Below, piece by piece: positions 1,621 to 19,600 of a DNA stretch of 20,589 bases. The notes below the pieces were generated by a model that saw only the letters and a list, made by a program, of their open reading frames with translations, made no database searches and was not told the DNA's origin. The number at the start of each line of letters is the position of its first letter. Within the stretch, counting starts at the first letter, position 1. The DNA is taken from positions 1-20,589 of IMG/VR virus record IMGVR_UViG_3300046534_000939; one strand, 5' to 3'. The position numbers were made by a program, and so were the translations under genes. The stretch is from a virus.

Positions 1621-1628
1621 TATTTATG
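1621..1628 (-). promoter_or_regulatory. Late-type -10 element upstream of gp25
   Basis: On the minus strand the sequence reads CATAAATA, one base from the T4 late promoter box TATAAATA. It ends about 5 nt before the gp25 ATG, so transcription starting 6-7 nt downstream would give little or no leader. Similar boxes precede the other structural units in this window. No -35 element is expected for gp55-type promoters. Confidence 0.45.
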
Positions 1629-1651
1629 TGACTGAAAAGTGCCTTTTGGTA

Positions 1652-1680
1652 TTGACAATACAGATAATGTACCTTATAAT
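1652..1680 (+). promoter_or_regulatory. Consensus sigma-70 promoter for the repeat-protein operon
   Basis: TTGACA at 1652-1657, a 17-bp spacer and TATAAT at 1675-1680 match the consensus perfectly. Transcription would begin near 1687 and give a leader of about 13 nt with AAAGGA before the ATG at 1700. It points away from the gp25 late-type element, so the two units diverge here. Confidence 0.85.
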
Positions 1681-1699
1681 TAACGACAAAGGATATACA

Positions 1700-1999
1700 A
1701 TGGCTGAGAGTGATATGCAATCTGTAATGACGGAGACAGGCGCGGGCGACAGGTGGTGGCGCAATAATTTCATCAGACTTCACCGCATTGACGGACCCGC
1801 TGTTGAATTGGTGAGTGGCCGCAAGGAATGGTGGATTGACGGCAGACTTCACCGAACTGATGGACCTGCAATTGAATATGCATATGGTGCCAAGAGTTGG
1901 TATCTAAACGACGGTCGTTATACGTTTGACGAATGGCTCGACAAAAATCAAGAATTGACCGACGAAGAAAAGGTCATGTATAAATTGGAATATGGATAA
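1700..1999 (+). CDS. HR-x-DGPA repeat protein 1
   Basis: A 99-aa member of a six-gene paralogous family; its function is not recognised. After a divergent N-terminus it has two copies of a ~20-residue unit (W..N..LHR-DGPA-E..-G-K-W), RLHRIDGPAVE and RLHRTDGPAIE, then the shared C-terminal cap YTFDEWLDKNQELTDEEK ending YKLEYG. Comparable repeats occur in uncharacterised proteins of phages and giant viruses, and the W/Y-G spacing resembles MORN/YwqK-type repeats, but neither homology proves a role. The start at 1700 was chosen because AAAGGA sits at the right distance and a consensus promoter lies just upstream. The end overlaps the next ATG by 8 nt. Confidence 0.85.
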   Translation: MAESDMQSVMTETGAGDRWWRNNFIRLHRIDGPAVELVSGRKEWWIDGRLHRTDGPAIEYAYGAKSWYLNDGRYTFDEWLDKNQELTDEEKVMYKLEYG

Positions 2000-2222
2000 A
2001 GATGTGCAACCTGTGATTACTGTAAATAAGTATGGTGACAAATTTTGGAAGTTGAACGCCAGACTTCACCGCGAAGATGGTCCTGCCATTGAGTGGGCGA
2101 CTGGGAAGGACAACAAGGAGTGGTATTTGTTTGGCATACCCTATTTATTTGAAGAATGGCTTGATCAACACCCACATATGACTGACGGAGAAAAAGTGAT
2201 GTATAAATTGGAATATGGATAA
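1992..2222 (+). CDS. HR-x-DGPA repeat protein 2
   Basis: A 76-aa paralogue with a single repeat (ARLHREDGPAIEWATG) followed by the cap (YLFEEWLDQHPHMTDGEK, ending VMYKLEYG). It is the shortest of the six. Its ATG lies inside the last codons of gene 1 (TAT GGA TAA read in another frame gives ATGGATAA), an 8-nt overlap that implies translational coupling. The C-terminal ten residues are identical to those of protein 1, which points to recent duplication or gene conversion. Function unknown. Confidence 0.8.
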   Translation: MDKDVQPVITVNKYGDKFWKLNARLHREDGPAIEWATGKDNKEWYLFGIPYLFEEWLDQHPHMTDGEKVMYKLEYG

Positions 2223-2503
2223 TGAAGACAGGCATATTCGAATATGCGTCTGGTGTCAAAGTTTGGAAGTTGGACAGCAAACTTCACCGCGAAGATGGCC
2301 CTGCCATGATACATGCAGATGGGCATAAAGAATGGTATTTAAACGGAAACCGTCACCGCACAGATGGTCCTGCTATTGAATGGATAAATGGGGATAAATG
2401 GTGGTTTTTGGATGACATTGGTATGCCATTTGAAACGTGGCTTGATAACAACCCAGATATGACTGACGAAGAAAAGATCATGTTTAAGCTACAATATGGT
2501 TGA
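2222..2503 (+). CDS. HR-x-DGPA repeat protein 3
   Basis: A 93-aa paralogue with two repeats, KLHREDGPAMIHADG and RHRTDGPAIEWINGDKWW, and a variant cap (MPFETWLDNNPDMTDEEK, ending IMFKLQYG). The first repeat has AMIHADG instead of A-x-EWADG. The start overlaps the preceding stop by one base (TAATG). Its TGA stop lies within the TTGACA of the promoter for the next gene, so the first sub-array ends where a new transcription unit begins. Function unknown. Confidence 0.8.
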   Translation: MKTGIFEYASGVKVWKLDSKLHREDGPAMIHADGHKEWYLNGNRHRTDGPAIEWINGDKWWFLDDIGMPFETWLDNNPDMTDEEKIMFKLQYG

Positions 2504-2528
2504 CACCATAGCGCCTTGCTGCTATAAA
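2500..2528 (+). promoter_or_regulatory. Sigma-70 promoter for the 280-aa zinc-motif protein
   Basis: TTGACA at 2500-2505, a 17-bp spacer and TATAAA at 2523-2528. The stop codon of repeat protein 3 (TGA, 2501-2503) is part of the -35 hexamer. The start codon at 2557 lies about 28 nt after the -10 box, with AAGGAAA at 2544-2550 as ribosome binding site. Confidence 0.8.
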
Positions 2529-2556
2529 GAACAAGTAAGCAAAAAGGAAACATGAC

Positions 2557-3399
2557 ATGACACGCACTGACATTCACCGCCCTAGCGTTATTAATCCTGA
2601 CGATTATCAGTTCGTATCGTTCCACAGTCATCATGACGATTATGTAGTCAACCTTATTGAGCAAGAGCAATTTCGCACTCACATGGCTAAGACAGGTGGC
2701 AAGTTCTCCCGTCATAACCACGGCGGCTCGTGCCACGTTTGCGGCGCACATGCAATGACTGTTGCTCGCTTTCACCATGTTCCAAGCAACACTTATGTCC
2801 AGACTGGTGAAGATTGTGCTGAAAAGTTGCATGAGGGTGATGCACTTAATTTCCGCAGCTTCCGTGTTAAAGCCAAGAAAGGTATTGACGCCGCAGCGGG
2901 TAAGCGGAAGGCACAAGTTTTCCTTGAGAACGCCAACTTGACTGCCGCATGGGCCATCTATGATGGCGGACTTGACTTCGACCCAAAGTGGGAAGAAAAC
3001 ACCATCTACGACATTGTTCGTAAGTTGGTCCAGTATGGTAGTATATCGGATAAGCAAAAATCATTCATTGGCAATCTTCTTGGCCGGATCGTGGATCGTG
3101 CACAGATTGCCGAACAGCGGGCCGCAGAGGTGGCAGCAGCGTTGCCTATCCCTGTAGAAGGCCGTATGGTCGTGACGGGCGCTGTACTCACCCTGAAAGG
3201 ACAGGAAACAGAGTTTGGTTATGTGACTAAGATGCTGGTTCAGCATGCCGAAGGATGGAAAGTATGGGGCACAGTCCCAAAGGCTCTTGCTGAAGTTAAA
3301 AAAGGCCAACAGGTTATCTTTACCGCAACGATCACAGTATCCGACAATGATCCCAAGTACGGGTTCTTCAAGCGGCCAGCCAAAGCGATGGTCGCATAA
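2557..3399 (+). CDS. Phage protein with N-terminal zinc motif and OB-like C-terminus
   Basis: 280 aa; no gene name recognised, although the overall pattern is familiar from uncharacterised phage proteins. The N-terminal half has CHVCG (C59, C62) with later candidate ligands H73/H74 and C87 in YVQTGEDCAEKL, which looks like a small zinc-binding module. A helical middle follows (SISDKQKSFIGNLLGRIVDR, about 162-181). From about 200 to 275 there is a beta-rich segment (GRMVVTGAVLTLKGQETEFG, WKVWGTVPKAL, GQQVIFTATI, FGFF-like KYGFFKRP) that reads like an OB-fold. Nucleic-acid binding is therefore a guess. The start at 2557 is preceded by AAGGAAA; an ATG at 2552 meets a stop after two codons. It sits inside the repeat-protein array and its stop overlaps the next ATG (TAATG), so repeat genes 4-6 are coupled to it. 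Confidence 0.85.
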   Translation: MTRTDIHRPSVINPDDYQFVSFHSHHDDYVVNLIEQEQFRTHMAKTGGKFSRHNHGGSCHVCGAHAMTVARFHHVPSNTYVQTGEDCAEKLHEGDALNFRSFRVKAKKGIDAAAGKRKAQVFLENANLTAAWAIYDGGLDFDPKWEENTIYDIVRKLVQYGSISDKQKSFIGNLLGRIVDRAQIAEQRAAEVAAALPIPVEGRMVVTGAVLTLKGQETEFGYVTKMLVQHAEGWKVWGTVPKALAEVKKGQQVIFTATITVSDNDPKYGFFKRPAKAMVA

Positions 3400-3749
3400 T
3401 GGAACCAAAGATGGAAATAGATCGGAAGGGCAACAAATTTTGGCGATTGCATGGTCGACTGCATCGCGAAGATGGGCCTGCCGCTGAATGGGCGGATGGC
3501 GACAAGATATGGCGGTTGAATGGGGAAAATCATCGCACTGACGGTCCTGCTATTGAATGCGCAGATGGTGGCAGATTTTGGTGCCAATACGGCAGCACTC
3601 ACCGAACAGATGGTCCTGCGGTTGAATTTGCTGATGGGTATGTAGAATTCCGATTGCGCGGCAGATACTATACGTTTGAAGAATGGCTGGAAGCAAATAC
3701 AGAAATTTCAGATGAAGAAAAAGTCATGATGAAGCTACAATATGGATGA
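3399..3749 (+). CDS. HR-x-DGPA repeat protein 4 (three repeats)
   Basis: A 116-aa paralogue, the longest of the family, with three repeats: RLHREDGPAAEWADGDK, NHRTDGPAIECADGG and THRTDGPAVEFADG. The cap is YTFEEWLEANTEISDEEK, ending VMMKLQYG. The start overlaps the stop of the zinc-motif gene by one base (TAATG). The repeats are imperfect (the third lacks the W-x-LNG element), so this copy is not the product of very recent expansion. Function unknown. Confidence 0.85.
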   Translation: MEPKMEIDRKGNKFWRLHGRLHREDGPAAEWADGDKIWRLNGENHRTDGPAIECADGGRFWCQYGSTHRTDGPAVEFADGYVEFRLRGRYYTFEEWLEANTEISDEEKVMMKLQYG

Positions 3750-4032
3750 TACAACGCCAATAATGACTACGGATAGCACAGGCAACAAATTTTGGACGAT
3801 GAATCGCGGCTACCACCGTACAGACGGACCTGCCGCTGAATGGGCGGATGGCGACAAATATTGGTGGTTGAACGACAGAATTCACCGAGTTGACGGACCC
3901 GCTATTGAATCGGCAAATGGCAACAAGGAATGGTGGTTACATGGCAATCATTATACGTTTGATGAATGGCTTGATCAAAATTGCGCATTAACTGAGGAAG
4001 ATAAAGTTATGTTAAAGTTACAATATGGTTGA
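3742..4032 (+). CDS. HR-x-DGPA repeat protein 5
   Basis: A 96-aa paralogue with two repeats (GYHRTDGPAAEWADGDKYWW and RIHRVDGPAIESANGNKEWW) and the cap YTFDEWLDQNCALTEEDK, ending VMLKLQYG. The first ~65 residues are nearly identical to protein 6, at the DNA level too, with a copy spacing of 283 bp. The ATG overlaps the end of gene 4 by 8 nt, inside the TAT GGA TGA that encodes the terminal Tyr-Gly-stop. Function unknown. Confidence 0.85.
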   Translation: MDDTTPIMTTDSTGNKFWTMNRGYHRTDGPAAEWADGDKYWWLNDRIHRVDGPAIESANGNKEWWLHGNHYTFDEWLDQNCALTEEDKVMLKLQYG

Positions 4033-4318
4033 TACAACGCCAATAATGACTACGGATAGCACAGGCAACAAATTTTGGACGATGAACGGCGACTACCACC
4101 GTACAGACGGACCTGCCGCTGAATGGGCGGATGGTGACAACTATTGGTGGTTGAACGACAGAATTCACCGCACTGACGGGCCAGCTATTGAAGAGGCAGA
4201 TGGTAACAAGCAATGGTATTTGAACGGTCGTCGATTTTATACGTTTGATGAATGGCTGGAAGAAAATACAGAAATTTCTGACGGAGGAAAAGTCATGATG
4301 AAGCTAAAATATGGTTAA
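4025..4318 (+). CDS. HR-x-DGPA repeat protein 6
   Basis: A 97-aa paralogue. The N-terminal two thirds copy protein 5 (both have DTTPIMTTDSTGNKFWTMN), whereas the C-terminal cap ENTEISDGGKVMMKLKYG is much closer to protein 4 than to protein 5, so the gene looks like a recombinant of its neighbours. The ATG overlaps gene 5 by 8 nt. It converges on the minus-strand lysozyme-fold gene, and the two stop codons overlap in a TTAA (4315-4318) with no terminator hairpin between them. Function unknown. Confidence 0.85.
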   Translation: MVDTTPIMTTDSTGNKFWTMNGDYHRTDGPAAEWADGDNYWWLNDRIHRTDGPAIEEADGNKQWYLNGRRFYTFDEWLEENTEISDGGKVMMKLKYG

Positions 4319-9834: not shown

Positions 9835-9879
9835 CCAGTGATAATATACCTATATAATTAGGCATACACTGTGTGATGA

Positions 9880-9887
9880 TATTTATC
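9880..9887 (-). promoter_or_regulatory. Late-type -10 element for the tail-tip operon
   Basis: The minus strand reads GATAAATA. It would start transcription roughly 60 nt upstream of the ATG at 9816 and is the only promoter-like element for the five-gene minus-strand operon. With the copy at 9827-9834 it forms an 8-bp inverted repeat. Confidence 0.5.
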
Positions 9888-9903
9888 AGCCAAAAAATAG
9901 TGT

Positions 9904-9932
9904 TTGACATCAATGGGTTAAAGTATTATAAT
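9904..9932 (+). promoter_or_regulatory. Consensus sigma-70 promoter for gp55
   Basis: TTGACA at 9904-9909, a 17-bp spacer and TATAAT at 9927-9932 match the consensus perfectly. The 12 bases TTGACATCAATG are shared with the gp47 promoter, so more than the two hexamers is conserved. The gp55 ATG follows ~22 nt after the -10 box, with AGGAAA as ribosome binding site. Confidence 0.85.
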
Positions 9933-9953
9933 AGTATAGAACAGGAAACCAAA

Positions 9954-10847
9954 ATGGCTAGAAAAAAATCCACGAAATACTTAAACAACAAAGACATGCT
10001 AAGAGAAATCCATTCCAGCAAATTAAGTTATTGTTATGCGATGGATGATAAATTTATGACCTTTGACCTTATTGTCGAAGACATTAATGATATCAATGAC
10101 GAGACAATCCAACAAGCTAAAGAAAACAAGGCACGCCGCTTGTCCGGCCTTGGATATGAAAAAGGGATCACCAAATGGGACGCTGAATCTGGCAAACTAG
10201 CTACTAAGCCTAAGCAGGCTGAATTTAAGGTTGACGCCAGCACCATAGATACAGACGACGTTGTAATCCGTGTCATGACTTATAATCATATCCCAGAAGC
10301 GCCAGGTCGCAAGAAAAATCCAAAGACAGTGGCAGACAAGCATGAACGCCTAAATTTCCCTCCATTCCAGCATCATGCGTGTGTGGACGGTACGTGGCAA
10401 GAAGTTTTGCGGTCACACTGGCAAGATGGGTTTGCAAACGGGTCATTCCGGCTGGATCATGGTGGTCTTACCCCTGAGTTGGCCAAGATGATGATGAAGT
10501 TGGTAGAACGCTATGCTATGCGTGGCAACTGGCGTGGCTACAGCTACCGTGACGAAATGGAGTCATCAGCCTTGTTACAACTGAGCGAAGTAGGCCTAAA
10601 ATTCAATGAGGCACGATCAGACAACCCATTCGCATATTACACTCAAATTTTACAAAATTCGTTCACTCGTGTGTTGAACTTAGAGAAGCGTAACCAACAT
10701 ATTCGTGACGATATTTTACAAGACAGTGGGTACATGCCCAGCTTCAATCGTCAAATCGACGACGAAGTTGCACAACAACGTGCCCGTGAGGATGATATCG
10801 AAAAAGGCCAACAAGAGCTTAAAGACCGTGGTTATAATATTCTTTGA
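9954..10847 (+). CDS. 55: gp55-like late sigma factor, long N-terminal extension
   Basis: 297 aa. Residues ~195-255 carry the region-2-like core of phage late sigma factors: RGYSYRDEMESSALLQLSEV, then RSDNPFAYYTQILQNSFTRV and LNLEKRNQHIRDDIL. The NPFAY-x-TQI motif is characteristic of gp55 in T4-like phages. In T4, gp55 replaces sigma-70 on host RNA polymerase and reads TATAAATA promoters with gp45 and gp33. T4 gp55 is 185 aa, so ~110 N-terminal residues are extra; they include MLREIHSSKLSYCYAMDDKF, TFDLIVEDINDIND and a basic APGRKKNPK stretch. The start at 9954 is chosen over 9873 because promoter and ribosome binding site lie between them. The order 55-47-46 matches T4. Confidence 0.85.
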   Translation: MARKKSTKYLNNKDMLREIHSSKLSYCYAMDDKFMTFDLIVEDINDINDETIQQAKENKARRLSGLGYEKGITKWDAESGKLATKPKQAEFKVDASTIDTDDVVIRVMTYNHIPEAPGRKKNPKTVADKHERLNFPPFQHHACVDGTWQEVLRSHWQDGFANGSFRLDHGGLTPELAKMMMKLVERYAMRGNWRGYSYRDEMESSALLQLSEVGLKFNEARSDNPFAYYTQILQNSFTRVLNLEKRNQHIRDDILQDSGYMPSFNRQIDDEVAQQRAREDDIEKGQQELKDRGYNIL

Positions 10848-10872
10848 CATCAATGACTTATCATGATATAAT
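10844..10872 (+). promoter_or_regulatory. Consensus sigma-70 promoter for gp47 and downstream genes
   Basis: TTGACA at 10844-10849, a 17-bp spacer and TATAAT at 10867-10872 match the consensus perfectly. The gp55 stop codon TGA (10845-10847) is part of the -35 hexamer. The gp47 ATG follows at 10893 with AAGGCA upstream. Confidence 0.85.
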
Positions 10873-10892
10873 ATTGTAAAATAAGGCAACAT

Positions 10893-11915
10893 ATGACAAC
10901 TAATTTATTCAAACATGCCGCTATATTTAGCGATATCCATTTCGGTATGAAGAACAACTCCAAAATCCACAACAACGACTGTGAACGGTTCATTGACTGG
11001 TTCATTAATGAAGCCAAAGCCAGAGGATGCGAAACTTGCATTTTTTCTGGTGACTGGCATCATAACCGTGCCAGCGTGAATGTCTCCACCCTAAACTATT
11101 CAGTCAGGAACTTACAAAAATTGAGCGCCGCTTTTGAAGAGGTATATTTTGTCGTGGGCAACCATGATTTATTCTATCGTGAAAAGCGTGAACTCAACTC
11201 ATTCCCGTATGCAGAGTTATTAGATAACATGCACATTATCAATGATCACATCACTGAAATTGGTAATGTTGCATTGGTTCCGTGGTTGATTGGTGACGAG
11301 TGGAAACAAATGAAGAAACTGAAATCCAAATATGTTTTTGGTCATTTTGAGCTTCCACACTTCATGATGAACGCAGTGGTGCAAATGCCTGACCAAGGTG
11401 AGTTGAACGCAAGTGATTTCAAATCGGCTGATTATGTGTTCAGTGGGCATTTCCACAAGCGACAAACTAAAGACAAAATTCATTATCTGGGTAGCCCCTT
11501 TGCACATAATTATGCAGACGCATGGGACGAGGATCGCGGCGCAATGTTCCTAGAATGGGACGGGGTGCCAACATACGTGAACTTCGAAGGTCCACGGTAT
11601 GTGCGATTAAATCTGAGTGACCTGATCGATAATCCTAGTGACTATTTAAATGATCGAACTTATTGTCGCGCAGTCCTAGACGTCCCTATCAGCTACGAAG
11701 AAGCCAATTTTATTAAAGAAACATTTATGACTCAATTTAATCCCTGTGAACTATCACTTATACCACAGAAAAAAGAAGAACACAACTCCGATCCTATCCA
11801 AGAGGGCGAATTCAGTGTGGAAAGTGTGGACCAAATTGTCTACCAACAGTTACAGACGGTTGAATCTGACATGATCCAGCAAAAGCTGCTCATGGATATA
11901 TATAAGGACTTATAA
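10893..11915 (+). CDS. 47: Recombination endonuclease subunit gp47 (SbcD/Mre11 type)
   Basis: 340 aa (T4 gp47 is 339). The calcineurin-like metallophosphoesterase motifs appear in order: SDIHFG (D14, H16), SGDWHHNR (D54), VVGNHD (N90, H91, D92), GHFELPH (H151) and SGHFHKRQ (H186, H188), the full set of two-metal ligands of Mre11 nucleases. With gp46 it forms the complex that resects double-strand ends for recombination-dependent replication. The C-terminal ~100 residues are the less conserved capping and gp46-binding part. The gene has its own promoter, and the next start codon abuts its stop directly. Confidence 0.95.
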   Translation: MTTNLFKHAAIFSDIHFGMKNNSKIHNNDCERFIDWFINEAKARGCETCIFSGDWHHNRASVNVSTLNYSVRNLQKLSAAFEEVYFVVGNHDLFYREKRELNSFPYAELLDNMHIINDHITEIGNVALVPWLIGDEWKQMKKLKSKYVFGHFELPHFMMNAVVQMPDQGELNASDFKSADYVFSGHFHKRQTKDKIHYLGSPFAHNYADAWDEDRGAMFLEWDGVPTYVNFEGPRYVRLNLSDLIDNPSDYLNDRTYCRAVLDVPISYEEANFIKETFMTQFNPCELSLIPQKKEEHNSDPIQEGEFSVESVDQIVYQQLQTVESDMIQQKLLMDIYKDL

Positions 11916-12131
11916 ATGAAAGATATTAAAGAAATAGACACCCGCGTAACAAATATGAGTAACCGTGCCCACAAAAATGGAACATTGTTATCAGACGACC
12001 CTGAATTTAAAGAACTCGTAGAGGCGCTGATGGAGGCAAATCATGACGATCTAATGGTATTACTAGGTGCTGCCATGTCAGAGGCCAACACGCTACCCAC
12101 ATGGCTTACAGAAGGACTACAAGATGACTAA
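11916..12131 (+). CDS. Small acidic hypothetical protein between gp47 and gp46
   Basis: 71 aa, probably all-helical and acidic (FKELVEALMEANHDDLMVLL), C-terminal LPTWLTEGLQDD. Not recognised. The ATG directly follows the gp47 stop with AAGGAC upstream, and the stop overlaps the next ATG by 8 nt, so it is almost certainly translated as part of the operon. T4 also has small unknown genes (46.1, 46.2) at this place, but I see no sequence match to claim. Confidence 0.75.
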   Translation: MKDIKEIDTRVTNMSNRAHKNGTLLSDDPEFKELVEALMEANHDDLMVLLGAAMSEANTLPTWLTEGLQDD

Positions 12132-12432
12132 ATTTATAACCCCAGGAACCATGCCAACGGCATACGAAGCCGAATTATTGATCATTTTGATTGAAGAATG
12201 CGCGGAAGTTGCTCAGCGTGCAACCAAGATGTTGCGATTTGGTATTGACGAAATTCAACCTGGACAGCCTCTCGATAATGCAGATAGGCTTTCGGACGAG
12301 GTAGGTGATCTTGAATGCATGATCCTTAAATGTGCCGACCATGGGTTGATTTCAGGCAAGAGAAAACATGATGCCCACCGGAAAAAATGGGATAAGCTCG
12401 CTAAATTTATGCAACAGGAAGCACCTAAATGA
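12124..12432 (+). CDS. MazG-like nucleotide pyrophosphohydrolase
   Basis: 102 aa from the ATG at 12124 (an upstream frame start at 12067 lies inside the preceding gene and lacks a ribosome binding site). The helical EExxE...ExxD signature of MazG/all-alpha NTP pyrophosphatases is visible: LIEECAEVAQRATKMLRFG at ~24-42, then DRLSDEVGDLECMI at ~60-73. Enzymes of this family hydrolyse (d)NTPs or ppGpp-like nucleotides. The length fits a single-domain phage MazG. Its place inside the gp47-gp46 operon (8-nt overlap before, ATGA overlap after) ties its expression to recombination and DNA replication; the substrate cannot be told from sequence. Confidence 0.7.
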   Translation: MTKFITPGTMPTAYEAELLIILIEECAEVAQRATKMLRFGIDEIQPGQPLDNADRLSDEVGDLECMILKCADHGLISGKRKHDAHRKKWDKLAKFMQQEAPK

Positions 12433-14201
12433 TTAGTATTAAGAACATCACACTCAAAAATTTTATGTCGGTCGGAAACGTGACCCAAGCTGTTAATTTC
12501 CAAGACTCAGGTTTAACGCTTGTATTAGGTAATAACTTGGACTTGGGTGGCGACGGTGCACGAAATGGCGTGGGCAAGACTACAATGGTCAACGCATTAA
12601 GCTATGCACTATATGGTAACGCGATCACCAACATTCGTAAAAATAATTTGATCAACAAAACAAACAGCAAGGGCATGTTAGTAACTGTTGAATTTAGTGT
12701 TGGCACTACAGAATATCGTATTGAGCGCGGACGCAGTCCAAATGTATTAAAATTCATGGTTAACAATGTTGACGCAATTGAAGAAACTGATGAGGGCCAA
12801 GGCGAAATGCGTCTTACTCAGCGTGAGATCGAGAATGTCATTGGTCTGAACCACATCATGTTCAAGCATCTCATTGCACTGAATACCTACAATGAACCAT
12901 TCCTTGCTCTTAGTGCCAACAATCAGCGCGAAATTATTGAAAATCTGTTAGGCATTACATTGTTATCTGAAAAAGCGTTGGTACTCAAAGAACTGTTAAA
13001 GAATACACGGGACTCTATCAAAGAAGAAGAATACCGTATCAAAGCCGTAGAAAATGCCAATGAACAAATTAAAAAAAGCATCACTGATTTGAAACGGCGT
13101 CAGCGGGTATGGGCACAAAAGAACCAAGAGACTGTTGCCGATCTTGTGCGAGAAGTTGCAGAGCTTACAAGCTTAGACCTAGAAAAAGAACTAGAACAAC
13201 ACCTAGAACTTGACGCCTATAATAAAACCCAACTGGTACTCGCCGATCACAACAGAGCCATTGCTAATTTTGATGCAACCTTGATGCGTGAACAACGTAT
13301 TAAAGATAAGGCACAAAAAGACTTAGTTGCCGCACAGAACCATAAATGTTATGCATGTGAGCAAGATTTACATGACGTGTCAAATACTACCATTATCGAG
13401 ACTAAAACACAAGACGTCGCAAATGCTATACAAGAAATTGCGGCTGCTGAAAATGGTGCTGCTGAGATTAAAGAAGCTATTAAGGGCCTTGTCCAGCTAG
13501 GGTTGCCGCCAGTTACTAAATATGCGACAGCACAAGAAGCTTACGAACGCCAAAATCAACTAACCACATTACAAAGCAAGCTGGACGACGCCAGCACAGC
13601 CGAAGACCCATATTCTGATCAAGTCAAATCACTTGAGGAAAGCGGGTTACAGGCTATCGATTGGGATATCATGAACAACTTTCATAACTTACGGGAACAC
13701 CAAGATTTCCTTTTGAAGTTGCTTGTGAACAAGGACAGCTTCATTCGTAAGCGGATTATCGAACAAAATCTACAGTATCTTAACTCACGGTTGAACTATT
13801 ATTTGAACAAGCTGGGCCTCCCACATGAGGTAGTATTCCAGAGTGACCTGTCTGTAGAAATTACAGAATTGGGACGTGAACTAGACTTTGATAATTTGAG
13901 CCGTGGTGAGCGGAATAGATTAATCCTTGGTCTTAGCTGGGCGTTCCGTGACGTGCATGAAAGCACTAACATGCCCATTGACTTTATGGCTATCGACGAA
14001 TTAATCGACAGCGGTATGGACAGCAATGGAGTTGAAAGTGCTCTAACTGTGTTAAAGAAAATGCACAGAGATCGCAACAAAAACATTTTTCTTATTTCAC
14101 ACAGAGAAGAACTTGTTGGCCGTGTCAACAATACACTGTATGTGATGAAAGAAAATGGATTTACCAGCTTTAGTACCGAACAAGAGGTTGACATTGTATA
14201 A
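12429..14201 (+). CDS. 46: Recombination endonuclease subunit gp46 (SbcC/Rad50 type)
   Basis: 590 aa (T4 gp46 is 560). ABC-type ATPase of the SbcC/Rad50 family: Walker A GARNGVGKTT at 43-52, coiled-coil arms flanking a zinc hook CYAC at 307-310, ABC signature LSRGERNRL at 490-498, Walker B IDFMAIDELID at 517-527 (D523, E524) and the H-loop LISHRE at ~555-560. It partners gp47 to process DNA ends. The ATG overlaps the MazG-like stop (ATGA). The last codons contain the -35 box of the next promoter. Confidence 0.95.
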   Translation: MISIKNITLKNFMSVGNVTQAVNFQDSGLTLVLGNNLDLGGDGARNGVGKTTMVNALSYALYGNAITNIRKNNLINKTNSKGMLVTVEFSVGTTEYRIERGRSPNVLKFMVNNVDAIEETDEGQGEMRLTQREIENVIGLNHIMFKHLIALNTYNEPFLALSANNQREIIENLLGITLLSEKALVLKELLKNTRDSIKEEEYRIKAVENANEQIKKSITDLKRRQRVWAQKNQETVADLVREVAELTSLDLEKELEQHLELDAYNKTQLVLADHNRAIANFDATLMREQRIKDKAQKDLVAAQNHKCYACEQDLHDVSNTTIIETKTQDVANAIQEIAAAENGAAEIKEAIKGLVQLGLPPVTKYATAQEAYERQNQLTTLQSKLDDASTAEDPYSDQVKSLEESGLQAIDWDIMNNFHNLREHQDFLLKLLVNKDSFIRKRIIEQNLQYLNSRLNYYLNKLGLPHEVVFQSDLSVEITELGRELDFDNLSRGERNRLILGLSWAFRDVHESTNMPIDFMAIDELIDSGMDSNGVESALTVLKKMHRDRNKNIFLISHREELVGRVNNTLYVMKENGFTSFSTEQEVDIV

Positions 14202-15267: not shown

Positions 15268-15307
15268 AATAGCCGCACTTAGCTGTAATAGGCTAAGTGC
15301 GGCTATT
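15268..15307. terminator. Strong hairpin, possible bidirectional terminator
   Basis: A perfect 16-bp stem (15268-15283 with 15292-15307; core GCCGCACTTAGC / GCTAAGTGCGGC) and an 8-nt loop. On the minus strand it is followed by a U-containing GTTTC, on the plus strand by ACTCTGG, so it looks more like a terminator for leftward transcripts coming from gp26. Without a clear U-tract, another structural role remains possible. Confidence 0.5.
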
Positions 15308-15521: not shown

Positions 15522-15764
15522 TTAGAGGTATTCTACACCCTTTGTCCCAGTTTCCGCTTTCTGTTTAGCACTGATACGTTCAACATATACGTTAACACGT
15601 GAAGATGTCATGTGTCCTATATCTGCGTATTGCAGTGATCCCTTAGCGGCAAGTACCACATCAATTAAATATGTTTCGATATCCTCCACCTCTTTAGCAA
15701 GGCTGTCTAAGTAATCGGAAAGTTTATTCCGATCAAGGTCTGCTATCGTGGCTAGAAAAAATTT
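15522..15764 (-). CDS. -1-frame extension of gp26 (frameshift-expressed C-terminal domain)
   Basis: Reading from the slippery site in the -1 frame gives 80 codons to the TAA at 15524-15522: a helical, acidic beginning (ATIADLDRNKLSDYLDSLAK, then VEDIETYLIDVV) and a basic end (MTSSRVNVYVERISAKQK). The frame has no ATG, GTG or TTG at its beginning; a stop precedes the slippery site by about 15 codons and the first ATG comes ~51 codons in. Expression is therefore expected as a 352-aa fusion with gp26. In T4 gene 51 follows gene 26, so this may take the place of gp51, but no sequence match is claimed. Confidence 0.7.
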   Translation of the reverse strand, partial: KFFLATIADLDRNKLSDYLDSLAKEVEDIETYLIDVVLAAKGSLQYADIGHMTSSRVNVYVERISAKQKAETGTKGVEYL

Positions 15765-16579
15765 ACAGGATTGATATCCACTGCCGTCTTATATTCATGC
15801 TGACATTTTTCACAGGTAATATTGAAAGTGTTATCCATTTCACCATTACTCAATTCAATAATTTTTGCAATGATTATTTTATATGTTTCTTTATTCATGT
15901 TTTGCACCCATCCTAAGATGAAATCAGGACTGGTCACGTCTTCTTCGTCATGTGGGGTCACTCTGATAATATTTTCGGCAACCAGCGCAATTTGGATTAA
16001 ACTACTTGCTGCCATAGCCTCATCAAATGCTTTTGTTTTTTCCTCTTTGTCCACATTATCAGAAATTAAAATTTGCTGTATACGGTGTTGGTGAAATTCC
16101 TGCACCTTTGATTTTACTTGTGTTTCTAGGCTATATGGTCGAACTTCAATCACAGTCTTATCGTTTAATGTGACAGTAGTTTCGGTCGAAATGCTGCCAA
16201 CGCTGTTCAACATAGTCCCCAAACTCAATTCATATTCGGCGGGTTCTGAACATGACGGGCATGTACTGCTAATTTCAATATTCTTTTTACCTGCTGCCAT
16301 ACGGATACCGATAAGAATAGAGTCAATATCACATTGCGGGATTTCCTTTGGATTCACAATGTCTGGGACACAACTACGAAACAATTCATATAATGCCTCG
16401 CCGTTAAATAGGACGTCGGGGCTTTTTAGTATGATTTCATCTCTGATAGTCATGGGCATAATACCCAATTCATTATCAACACTTAGCGTAATTCCGCTAG
16501 GATAATGTGCGCCTTTACTTGGCAATTCCAAATAATATGATTTGTTTCGAAATAATTTTTGTAGTGGGTTGTTTGTCAT
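15752..16579 (-). CDS. 26: gp26-like baseplate hub / tail assembly protein
   Basis: 275 aa, T4 gp26 family (T4 gp26 is 208 aa). It begins NNPLQKLFRNKSYYLELPSK with GAHYPSGI, then PMTIRDEIILKSPDVLFNGE, the family's typical N-terminal half. Two Cys pairs, CPSC (107-110) and CEKC (256-259), probably make one zinc site. T4 gp26 is needed for hub assembly. The last codons are GTA AAT TTT TTC TAG, where a -1 slip leads into an 80-codon open frame. The gene diverges from the tape-measure-like gene at 16651. A late-type element lies ~45 nt upstream. Homology of the N-terminal part is recalled from T4-like marine phages. Confidence 0.75.
   Translation of the reverse strand: MTNNPLQKLFRNKSYYLELPSKGAHYPSGITLSVDNELGIMPMTIRDEIILKSPDVLFNGEALYELFRSCVPDIVNPKEIPQCDIDSILIGIRMAAGKKNIEISSTCPSCSEPAEYELSLGTMLNSVGSISTETTVTLNDKTVIEVRPYSLETQVKSKVQEFHQHRIQQILISDNVDKEEKTKAFDEAMAASSLIQIALVAENIIRVTPHDEEDVTSPDFILGWVQNMNKETYKIIIAKIIELSNGEMDNTFNITCEKCQHEYKTAVDINPVNFF
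15755..15764 (-). promoter_or_regulatory. Candidate -1 programmed frameshift site
   Basis: The minus strand reads A-AAT-TTT-TTC before the 0-frame TAG. It contains two overlapping X-XXY-YYZ heptamers, A AAT TTT and T TTT TTC. A perfect 7-bp hairpin ATCGGAA/TTCCGAT (15733-15727 with 15720-15714, 6-nt loop) follows 21 nt downstream, farther than the usual 5-9 nt, so its stimulatory role is uncertain. Confidence 0.65.
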
Positions 16580-16650: not shown

Positions 16651-19600
16651 ATGGCAAACAAAGAAATGCAGGACCTTTATATTGCTGGTGAAAAGATAAC
16701 TGTGCCTGCATGGTCAACTGAAACTACATTAAGCGCTGTCGCAGGCTATAGTGAGGCAACGGCGAAGTCGCTTGATGCTATGCTCAAGTCACAGGGCAAG
16801 GAAGGCGCTATAGCTAGAGATAACAAGAAAATCTTTAGCAATATATTAACTGCACAAAAAAACACTGTTGACCAGGCCGAAACTGCTGCCAAGAATGCTC
16901 AAAAAGATGCCAAGAATGCGGATAAGGCAAGCAAAAAAGAATTAGCAGAATTAAAGAAGGCAAGCGACGAGCGCGTCACAAGCCTCAAATCCTTCACCAA
17001 ATCCTTCAACGACCAAGATTTAGAAGGTATGACTAAGGCAATTGCTGGCACTGGCATGCTTGGGGTTGCAGCAGGTATTGCGGTTGGTACCGTGGTACAA
17101 TTTAGTAAAGACTTGACCGAAATGTCGAATATTGGTGTAGGGTTTGGTGATACATTACTAGAACTTAAAGCACATTCTACTGCTACTGGGTTGAGTTTGG
17201 CCGACTATGGTAAGCTTGTTTCTGGAAACCTTGACGGCATGATTGCCCTAGGTGGTACTGTTCACGAAGGTGCGCGGTTATTCAGTGGACTAAGTAGACA
17301 AATTAGAGATGCATCAAACGATTTCCATCAATTCGGTTTATCCAATATGGAAATGAACCAAGTTATTGCGGATGAAATTGAATTGCGTCGCAAATCAGGC
17401 ATGCAACAATCATTGATTGCTGGTAACGTGGCAGCAAGCATGAACGACTTGATGCTGGAAACCTCTGCATTGGCTAACATTACAGGACAAGACAGACGCG
17501 AAGTAATGCGTGCCCGTAATGAAGCCATGAATGACGAGGTGACATCCGCATTCATAGGCACGTTAAGTGATGCTGCTAGAGATAATGTACTAGGTACAAG
17601 TGCAATTTTCAGCAAGTTAGGTGCGGCTGGCGACACTATGTTTTCATCAATATTCGGAGGCATGGCATCTGGGGTAGATTCTGATGTCATAAACGGTGGC
17701 GTATTAGCTAAATTAACAGCATTAAGCCCTGAGATCGGAACAATGATATCTGGGATAGATGACTTTATCACGGCCAACGTAGGCAACGAGAGCAACCCAG
17801 AATATCTAGCAGAATTAACTTCAATGGTTGGAAACATGCAAAATGCAATCTCCGGCGACGAACGCGAGAGGTTATCTCTTATAGCCTTGACAAATGGCTC
17901 ACAGGCTGAAAACGCCAGATTGTTATTAGGTATGCGCCGTGACGCCGCTGGATTGAACACTGACGCTGCCGAAAATCAACAAGAATTTATACGTACTAGC
18001 GTTGAAATGGCGCTATCACCACTGATAGGACTAGGATCAACGTTTGAGGATGCAGCGGTCACATTGCAGTTGGCAGCATTAGAAACAGTGATTGGTGGGT
18101 TTGATACCCTTATGGCCAAACTGATGGGTGATTCTGACATAGTGGGGGCCGCAGGCACCAGCATGATCGGGGCGCTAGATGCACTTACAGCAGCATATAC
18201 TGATACAAACCTCGTAGGTGGGACATATAACCTACTTAAGGACGTTGATAAGTCCACACTCCTTATGGCTGGTGCTGCTACCGCCCTGTTGGGATATTTG
18301 CGTGGTCGAGAAGGCGCAGGCGCAGGCAGCGGCGTCGGCGGCACAATACTTAGCGGCCTTGGTGTATACACTGCAATTGCATGGGGCAAATCTGTAGTCA
18401 CTAGGGCCACTGTTGGTGCCGTTAACATCGTCTCGAATGCGGCCACAGCCGCCCGCACTGCTGCGGTGGCCACAGCCCGTGTAACGTCAACGTCAGCCGC
18501 CGCAGCCGCTAGGGAAGCATCTGCTATTATTACCGCCCGCTCTATTGCAGCCCGTGAGGCGGCAATAGTCGTCGCCAACGCGGCCCGTGTAACGTCAACG
18601 TCAGCCGCAGTCAAAGCTGTACAGGTTATGGCCAACGCGGCAAGAATTTTAGGCGGTCCTGTATCATTGGCCGCACAGTTCATCGCCGCGCCTACCGCCG
18701 CAGGTGACGGCACAATGCCCGAACCAGACGATTACCGCGCAGCAATTGAAGCAGCCACAGAGTCAAATCGCGCGGATGCCGTTAGGGAATCTCGTATATA
18801 TAAAAATGAAACGCGAACCCAACGGGCAACTGACCTTCCACCAATTATTGAACACAATGCCCCCATTCAGGCAGGACAAGTAAGACCAACCGAAACTGGT
18901 GCACTAGAAACTGGTATGACGACAGATAATGCTTGGCGTCATGGAATCAGAGGGCAGAGATTCTTAGAATCGCTGATGCCATCACCGCCAGTTGTTGAAG
19001 TTTATGTCGAGCCGATAATCAACGTTCATGCACCAGCCGTGCCATCTATTGTTATTCCAGAACAAGATACTCCAACAATCAATGTTCATGCACCAGCTAT
19101 TGTAGTTCCAGAGCAAGATGTCCCAGCTATCAATGTTCATGCACCAGCTATTGTTGTTCCAGAGCAAGATGTCCCAGCTATCAATGTTCATGCACCAGCT
19201 ATTGTTGTTCCAGAACAAGATATTCCGACAATAAATGTCCCTGCACCAGTTGTACCAGCTATTGTTGTTCCAGAACAAGATATTCCGACAACCAATGTTC
19301 ATGTACCAGCTATTGTTGTTCCAGAACAGGTAGCCCCAAATATCAATGTCCCTGCACCAGTTGTACCAGCTATTGTTGTTCCAGAACAAGATATTCCGAC
19401 AATAAATGTCCCTGCACCAGTTGTACCAGCCGTCGAAGTTCGCGCTGAACTTATCGAAAACATTCCTAATGCATTGGCCAACAATCGCAACGTATCACCA
19501 ATTATTGACCAATCTGAGCGCACCCGTCCAGAGCAACCAAAGCCAACAAAACATGGTGCCTCAGAAACTGATATAAAAACAGATAGTGCGCGACGAAACA

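Follow-up and report, generated by a model that had tools for sequence, protein, structure and literature searches.

Conserved -1 frameshift signal at the 3' end of gp26-family genes and its likeness to the tail-assembly chaperones of lambda and T4

In phage lambda, a short protein, gpG, is accompanied by gpGT, a rare -1 fusion with a small C-terminal domain, and the tape-measure gene is adjacent (PMC5009743); the same 2016 review presents T4 as the exception to the conserved G-T frameshifting of tailed phages. The tail-assembly chaperones of T4-like phages have already been identified by Vladimirov, Gautam & Davidson (2022, Virology 566:9-15), according to two papers that cite this study (PMC10274946, PMC12846349). 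The first of these relates that a short gene is accompanied by a longer, fused one in some T4-like phages, and the second mentions poly-T slip sites in T4-like TAC-N genes. As far as the citing papers relate it, that system resembles the one described here in its T4-like chaperones, its short/fused gene pair and its poly-T slip sites, and because it had been reported in 2022 the central idea followed here is not new. A conserved -1 frameshift, with a GTTTTT slip and an open -1 frame, has also been described for the chaperones of the Vandenendeviridae and Andersonviridae (PMC12846349); these are other phage families, likened to the present locus by frameshift features.

The locus lies in a 20,589-nt stretch of viral DNA (IMG/VR record IMGVR_UViG_3300046534_000939), hereafter the window, whose features are collected in Table 1. 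Its gp26-family gene matches the PF12322 (T4_baseplate) profile with 54.3 bits against a curated cut-off of 24.5, and the encoded protein shares conserved CxxC pairs with its relatives; the 0-frame product would be a short tail-assembly chaperone, 'G'-like or TAC-N. The gene ends GTA AAT TTT TTC TAG, and the two overlapping slip heptamers that an earlier note had claimed there are found, both in the 0 frame, T_TTT_TTC abutting the stop codon and A_AAT_TTT ending one codon before it. A 0-frame X_XXY_YYZ heptamer just 5' of the 0-frame stop is thus combined with a -1 frame that is open from position 15788 and runs for 80 codons from the slip, stop included. The fusion is 352 aa long whichever heptamer slips, so that both the open frame and the extension from 275 to 352 aa given in the earlier note were reproduced; its predicted junction-spanning peptide is TAVDINPVNFFLATIADLDR. 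The claim that about the first 51 codons of the -1 frame hold no start codon stood for ATG, the first of which comes about 50 codons in, but had overlooked two earlier GTG codons, the first lying 23 codons past the second slip Phe codon, where the nearest relative (L111) has GTC. The -1 domain of the window aligns with those of 37 relatives nearly free of gaps, starting at the slip Phe-Phe, and its structural model is all-helical (pLDDT 84); a BFVD search with this domain gave no match below E=0.02.

Table 1. Position of the features of the frameshift locus in the window
Feature	Position	Strand	Basis or remark
gp26-family gene, 275-aa 0-frame product	15752..16579	-	PF12322 E=1.9e-14; phrog_150 baseplate hub E=8e-20
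Slippery stretch AAATTTTTTC	15755..15764	-	A_AAT_TTT 15764-15758 overlapping T_TTT_TTC 15761-15755
0-frame stop TAG	15752..15754	-	Immediately 3' of slip site
-1 frame domain, 'T'-like, 79 aa from first slip Phe	15522..15761	-	Open frame; stop 15522-15524
Downstream stem, 5' arm TAGCAG	15740..15745	-	9 nt past T_TTT_TTC
Downstream stem, 3' arm TTGCTA	15695..15700	-	Encloses inner hairpin
Inner hairpin GATCGGAA / TTCCGATT	15727-15734 / 15713-15720	-	Inside downstream stem
Tape-measure-like virion gene, 1025 aa	16651..19728	+	Divergent from gp26; position and relatives

Sequence searches for close matches found jumbo phages (RaK2/PA5oct/CBB/GAP32/121Q/Atu_ph07-like) first and cyanophages, phiM12, ACP17 and AS-szw next, together with 176 viral-contig loci, some of them cultured-phage records; 114 relatives were left after dereplication, marine uncultured jumbo-like phages among them. 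The earlier note had pointed to gp26 homologues as the place to look for conservation of the heptamer and the -1 frame, and there it was found: 110/114 dereplicated relatives have an in-frame X_XXY_YYZ heptamer within the last 60 nt of gp26, and a small conserved domain follows 3' of it in an open -1 frame. Slip site and -1 domain recur at a gp26 identity to the window of about 25-56%, including cultured phages with finished genomes, which excludes chance; across a diverse subset the identity falls to 23-34%, so that the shared slip site does not reflect recent common descent of one contig. Among cyanophages whose gp26 ends in Phe-Phe, T_TTT_TTC is used in 39/40, as against 8% expected from codon usage, and in the jumbo-type set it is present in 57/67, with TTTTTTT in three and AAATTTT alone in seven. 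These counts do not amount to a probability over independent trials because the sequences are related, although large divergence separates the sites. The observation of a conserved -1 frameshift signal at the end of gp26 is confirmed.

The heptamer is missing in four relatives (L020, L022, L027 and L029), three of which show other arrangements. In Pseudomonas phage Cygsa01 (L027:3238) the domain has an ATG of its own that overlaps the gp26 stop (TAATG), and re-initiation may there replace frameshifting. In Salmonella phage aagejoakim, of the Ackermannviridae (L029, about position 3244), the domain lies in the -1 frame, with neither a canonical heptamer nor an early ATG. In Microcystis phage Mel-JY01 (L022:3722-3958) the locus lies between the tail tube gene and a very large gene and consists of a distant gp26 homologue with a similar small domain 3' of it, in the +1 (or -2) frame.

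Frameshift sites usually have a spacer of 5-9 nt between the slip and the downstream structure (PMC5009743). In sliding windows along the relatives, RNA stability was unusual solely in those beginning 0-5 nt past the heptamer, other positions having a mean z of about -0.3. The means there were -1.7/-1.5 for the jumbo-type set (-1.7 at offset 0, with 53% below -2) and -1.95/-2.7 for cyanophages (-2.7 at offset 5, with 75% below -2). Most lineages have a stem-loop at the classical distance. A stem arm begins 4-7 nt past the slip in 36/40 cyanophages and in 27/67 jumbo-type representatives; in a large marine group the stem starts 2-3 nt past TTTTTTC, that is, 5-6 nt past A_AAT_TTT. The stem sequences vary by lineage while pairing is kept, with 97.3% of cells paired and 6 doubly changed pairs in the group near the window, and 96% paired and 2 doubly changed pairs in the marine group; in slid registers the pairing collapses. 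A 3' structure about 5-9 nt downstream is therefore carried by the group signal and the covariation; the window itself is a moderate case with a 9-nt spacer, its stem being modest (z=-3.86 over 61 nt, equalled by 0/200 shuffles; z=-2.63 over 75 nt) and its nearest relative having no clear equivalent. Cyanophages also have a Shine-Dalgarno (SD)-like GAGG/AGGG (GAG-GGN) about 10 nt 5' of the slip, within Leu-Glu-Gly codons. The Glu in question is GAG in 36/40, as against 246/856 Glu codons (29%) elsewhere in the gene, and the other four read GAA-GGG. An upstream SD-like element is a stimulator of frameshifting in E. coli dnaX. Stimulators of this 5' kind are discussed in the 2016 review (PMC5009743).

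Pairs of relatives were compared over the codons that lie past the 0-frame stop but before any possible start codon. Over 234 codons, differences at codon positions 1/2/3 numbered 35/24/83, and the changed codons were 59 synonymous and 48 non-synonymous; both the codon-position pattern and the synonymous excess indicate that this start-less stretch is translated in the -1 frame. In PA5oct, ATG, GTG and TTG are absent from the entire -1 frame, and together with the selection on start-less codons this makes frameshifting the likely route into that frame. Slip-codon conservation, the selection just described, the 3' stem-loops and the cyanophage SD-like element all support the reading of these sequences as a programmed -1 shift.

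The link to T4 was sought in gp26 and gp51, which the earlier note had taken for separate genes with no such frameshift known and for the T4 counterparts of G/GT. Both proteins match PF12322, gp51 across residues 1-201, and residues 200-246 of gp51 align (32% over 47 aa) with the -1 domain of cyanophages; phrog_634 already unites the gp51 C-terminus with small downstream ORFs. T4 has two PF12322 genes, whereas 17 other phages searched have one each, and exactly one is present within the window, a 20.6-kb fragment from an incomplete record, which in this respect differs from the T4 system of two genes, one fused in frame. The Phe-Phe codons of T4 gene 26 are TTC TTT, and the gene continues straight into gene 25. 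T4 thus has the same family, and in gp51 a domain homologous to that of the cyanophage -1 frame, but divided between a short gene and a long one fused in frame, without frameshift; the absence of the shift from T4 was borne out, and the likening of gp26/gp51 to G/GT gained support from the shared family, the extra domain of gp51 and the two genes of T4 against one elsewhere. The simplest reading of these comparisons is that T4 swapped frameshifting for a duplicated, fused gene. The -1 domain of the jumbo type gave a profile probability of 54%, a marginal value, with the cyanophage -1 domain, and no significant match in a profile comparison with gp51; its position and the marginal cyanophage match may tie it, weakly, to gp51. 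Evenly poised, in our judgement, is the broader proposal that single-gene gp26 frameshifting was ancestral in the T4 superfamily and spread through jumbo, marine and cyanophage lineages with lineage-specific stimulators, T4 having lost it by duplication into gp26 and gp51; in the literature that we searched, neither the jumbo/marine part of this proposal nor the stimulators had been described.

The gene beside gp26 in the window is tape-measure-like on grounds of position and relatives. Its product has 39% identity over 551 aa to that of the gene in the same place in the nearest relative, and it matches part of GAP32_244 weakly (E=3.6e-6); GAP32_244 carries the annotation virion structural protein, and the SNUABM_47 gene in the corresponding position that of putative tape measure protein. 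The product from the window had no match in Pfam, no significant match in PHROG and none in a sequence search of annotated phages. Near the end of this gene (19042-19420), PAIVVPEQDIPTINVHA-like units are encoded by 51/111-nt repeats in tandem. The lambda-like arrangement claimed in the earlier note held in that a tape-measure-like gene adjoins gp26, but not in orientation, since the gene is divergent on the opposite strand. The lambda gene order is therefore not copied in the window, which also differs from lambda in its slip, A_AAT_TTT/T_TTT_TTC, and phiM12 and the cyanophage relatives come nearer to that order. In phiM12 it is tail tube, gp26, gp51, one gene, tape measure; in Syn19 it is gp26, a small ORF and a large gene, the gene upstream being unannotated. 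Profile and Foldseek searches for homology of gp26 to gpG or solved tail-assembly chaperones found no PDB match, and an NCBIfam search gave no useful match. As neither sequence nor solved fold links them, gp26 may be said to work like lambda G/GT, not to be homologous to it. The AlphaFold2 model of gp26, a confident one (pLDDT 87), is similar to predicted structures of T4-like hub assembly proteins.

In the explanation that we prefer, one gp26-family gene would give two proteins. Most ribosomes would stop at TAG and release the 275-aa short protein, and a minority would slip by -1 at A_AAT_TTT or T_TTT_TTC, aided by the downstream stem-loop and, in cyanophage relatives, also by the upstream SD-like element, to yield the 352-aa fusion, which ends in the small helical domain. 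On the model of lambda gpG/gpGT and T4 gp26/gp51, the short protein would serve to coat or hold the tape measure, recruitment of tail-tube subunits would fall to the rare fusion, and the ratio of the two products would consequently matter for tail assembly. The computations show the conserved slip site, coding in the -1 frame, the stem-loop, the family membership and the paralogue pair of T4; that ribosomes slip in vivo, how efficiently they do so and that the products act as chaperones is what we infer, the last from the neighbouring genes, the logic of the two products and the T4 assignment already in print. As a whole, with the lambda- and T4-like chaperone roles included, we hold this explanation to be highly probable.

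The same observations have been set against three other readings. The downstream frame could be a separate small gene that ribosomes enter by re-initiating or at a start codon of its own, the heptamer being incidental. Public annotations frequently give the -1 domain as an ORF of 51-76 aa, Cygsa01 lacks the canonical heptamer and has the TAATG overlap, and in many cyanophages an ATG lies two bases past the 0-frame stop, although many of these ATG codons belong to the 5' stem arm. More generally, ATG, GTG or TTG comes soon after the slip in most cyanophages and in about one third of the jumbo-type set, so that re-initiation could add some free T domain. As the sole route it is nevertheless quite unlikely: slip codons are kept far above codon-usage expectation, the -1 protein sequence is conserved 5' of any start codon, PA5oct has no start to use, the stem-loops stand at the classical frameshift spacing, and the first start in the window, the GTG 23 codons past the slip, is not kept in the nearest relative. 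A sequencing or assembly error, by which the run of six T would really be seven and the frame continuous, comes to mind because homopolymer runs are prone to error, but the frame break is repeated, with differing flanking bases, in dozens of independent assemblies and in finished cultured genomes, and a base-calling error is not the explanation; we give it hardly any credence.

Somewhat less improbable than either, though still unlikely, is that the frameshift is real but its products serve baseplate-hub assembly unrelated to chaperoning of tape measure and tail tube. The phrog_150 annotation reads 'baseplate hub', gp26 and gp51 appear in the older T4 literature among the chaperones of hub assembly (PMC3004832), and the gp26 model matches no tail chaperone of solved structure. 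Against this, the pair lies just 5' of a large tape-measure-like gene in cyanophages and phiM12, in the latter also after the tail-tube gene; the logic of short and long products equals that of G/GT; and Vladimirov et al. 2022, according to the papers that cite it (PMC10274946, PMC12846349), call the T4-like genes tail-assembly chaperones.

With the two-product explanation, the window presents nothing new in kind but a well-supported further case of known chaperone frameshifting. It places frameshifting in many T4 relatives, T4 gp26/gp51 looking like its duplicated replacement, in agreement with published work. A limited literature search found nothing on frameshifting in jumbo/RaK2-like or marine lineages or on RNA stimulators, and these, as far as that search and the papers citing Vladimirov et al. 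2022 reach, are left as new. In many genomes the -1 domain is overlooked or entered in the annotation as a hypothetical gene of its own, and clean, testable frameshift cassettes are to be had from the conserved stem-loops.

Elsewhere in the window, a perfect 16-bp inverted repeat with an 8-nt loop (15268-15307), for which Rfam gave no match, lies in a region of 720 bases that has no clear gene. At 1628-4318 (+) there are six tandem small paralogous genes rich in 'HREDGPA..W..N' repeats, interrupted by an unrelated ORF; two of the six were compared with PHROG and had no match. At 9873-14201 (+), genes for a late sigma factor (gp55-like) and for SbcD/SbcC-like proteins (gp47/gp46) adjoin the tail genes.
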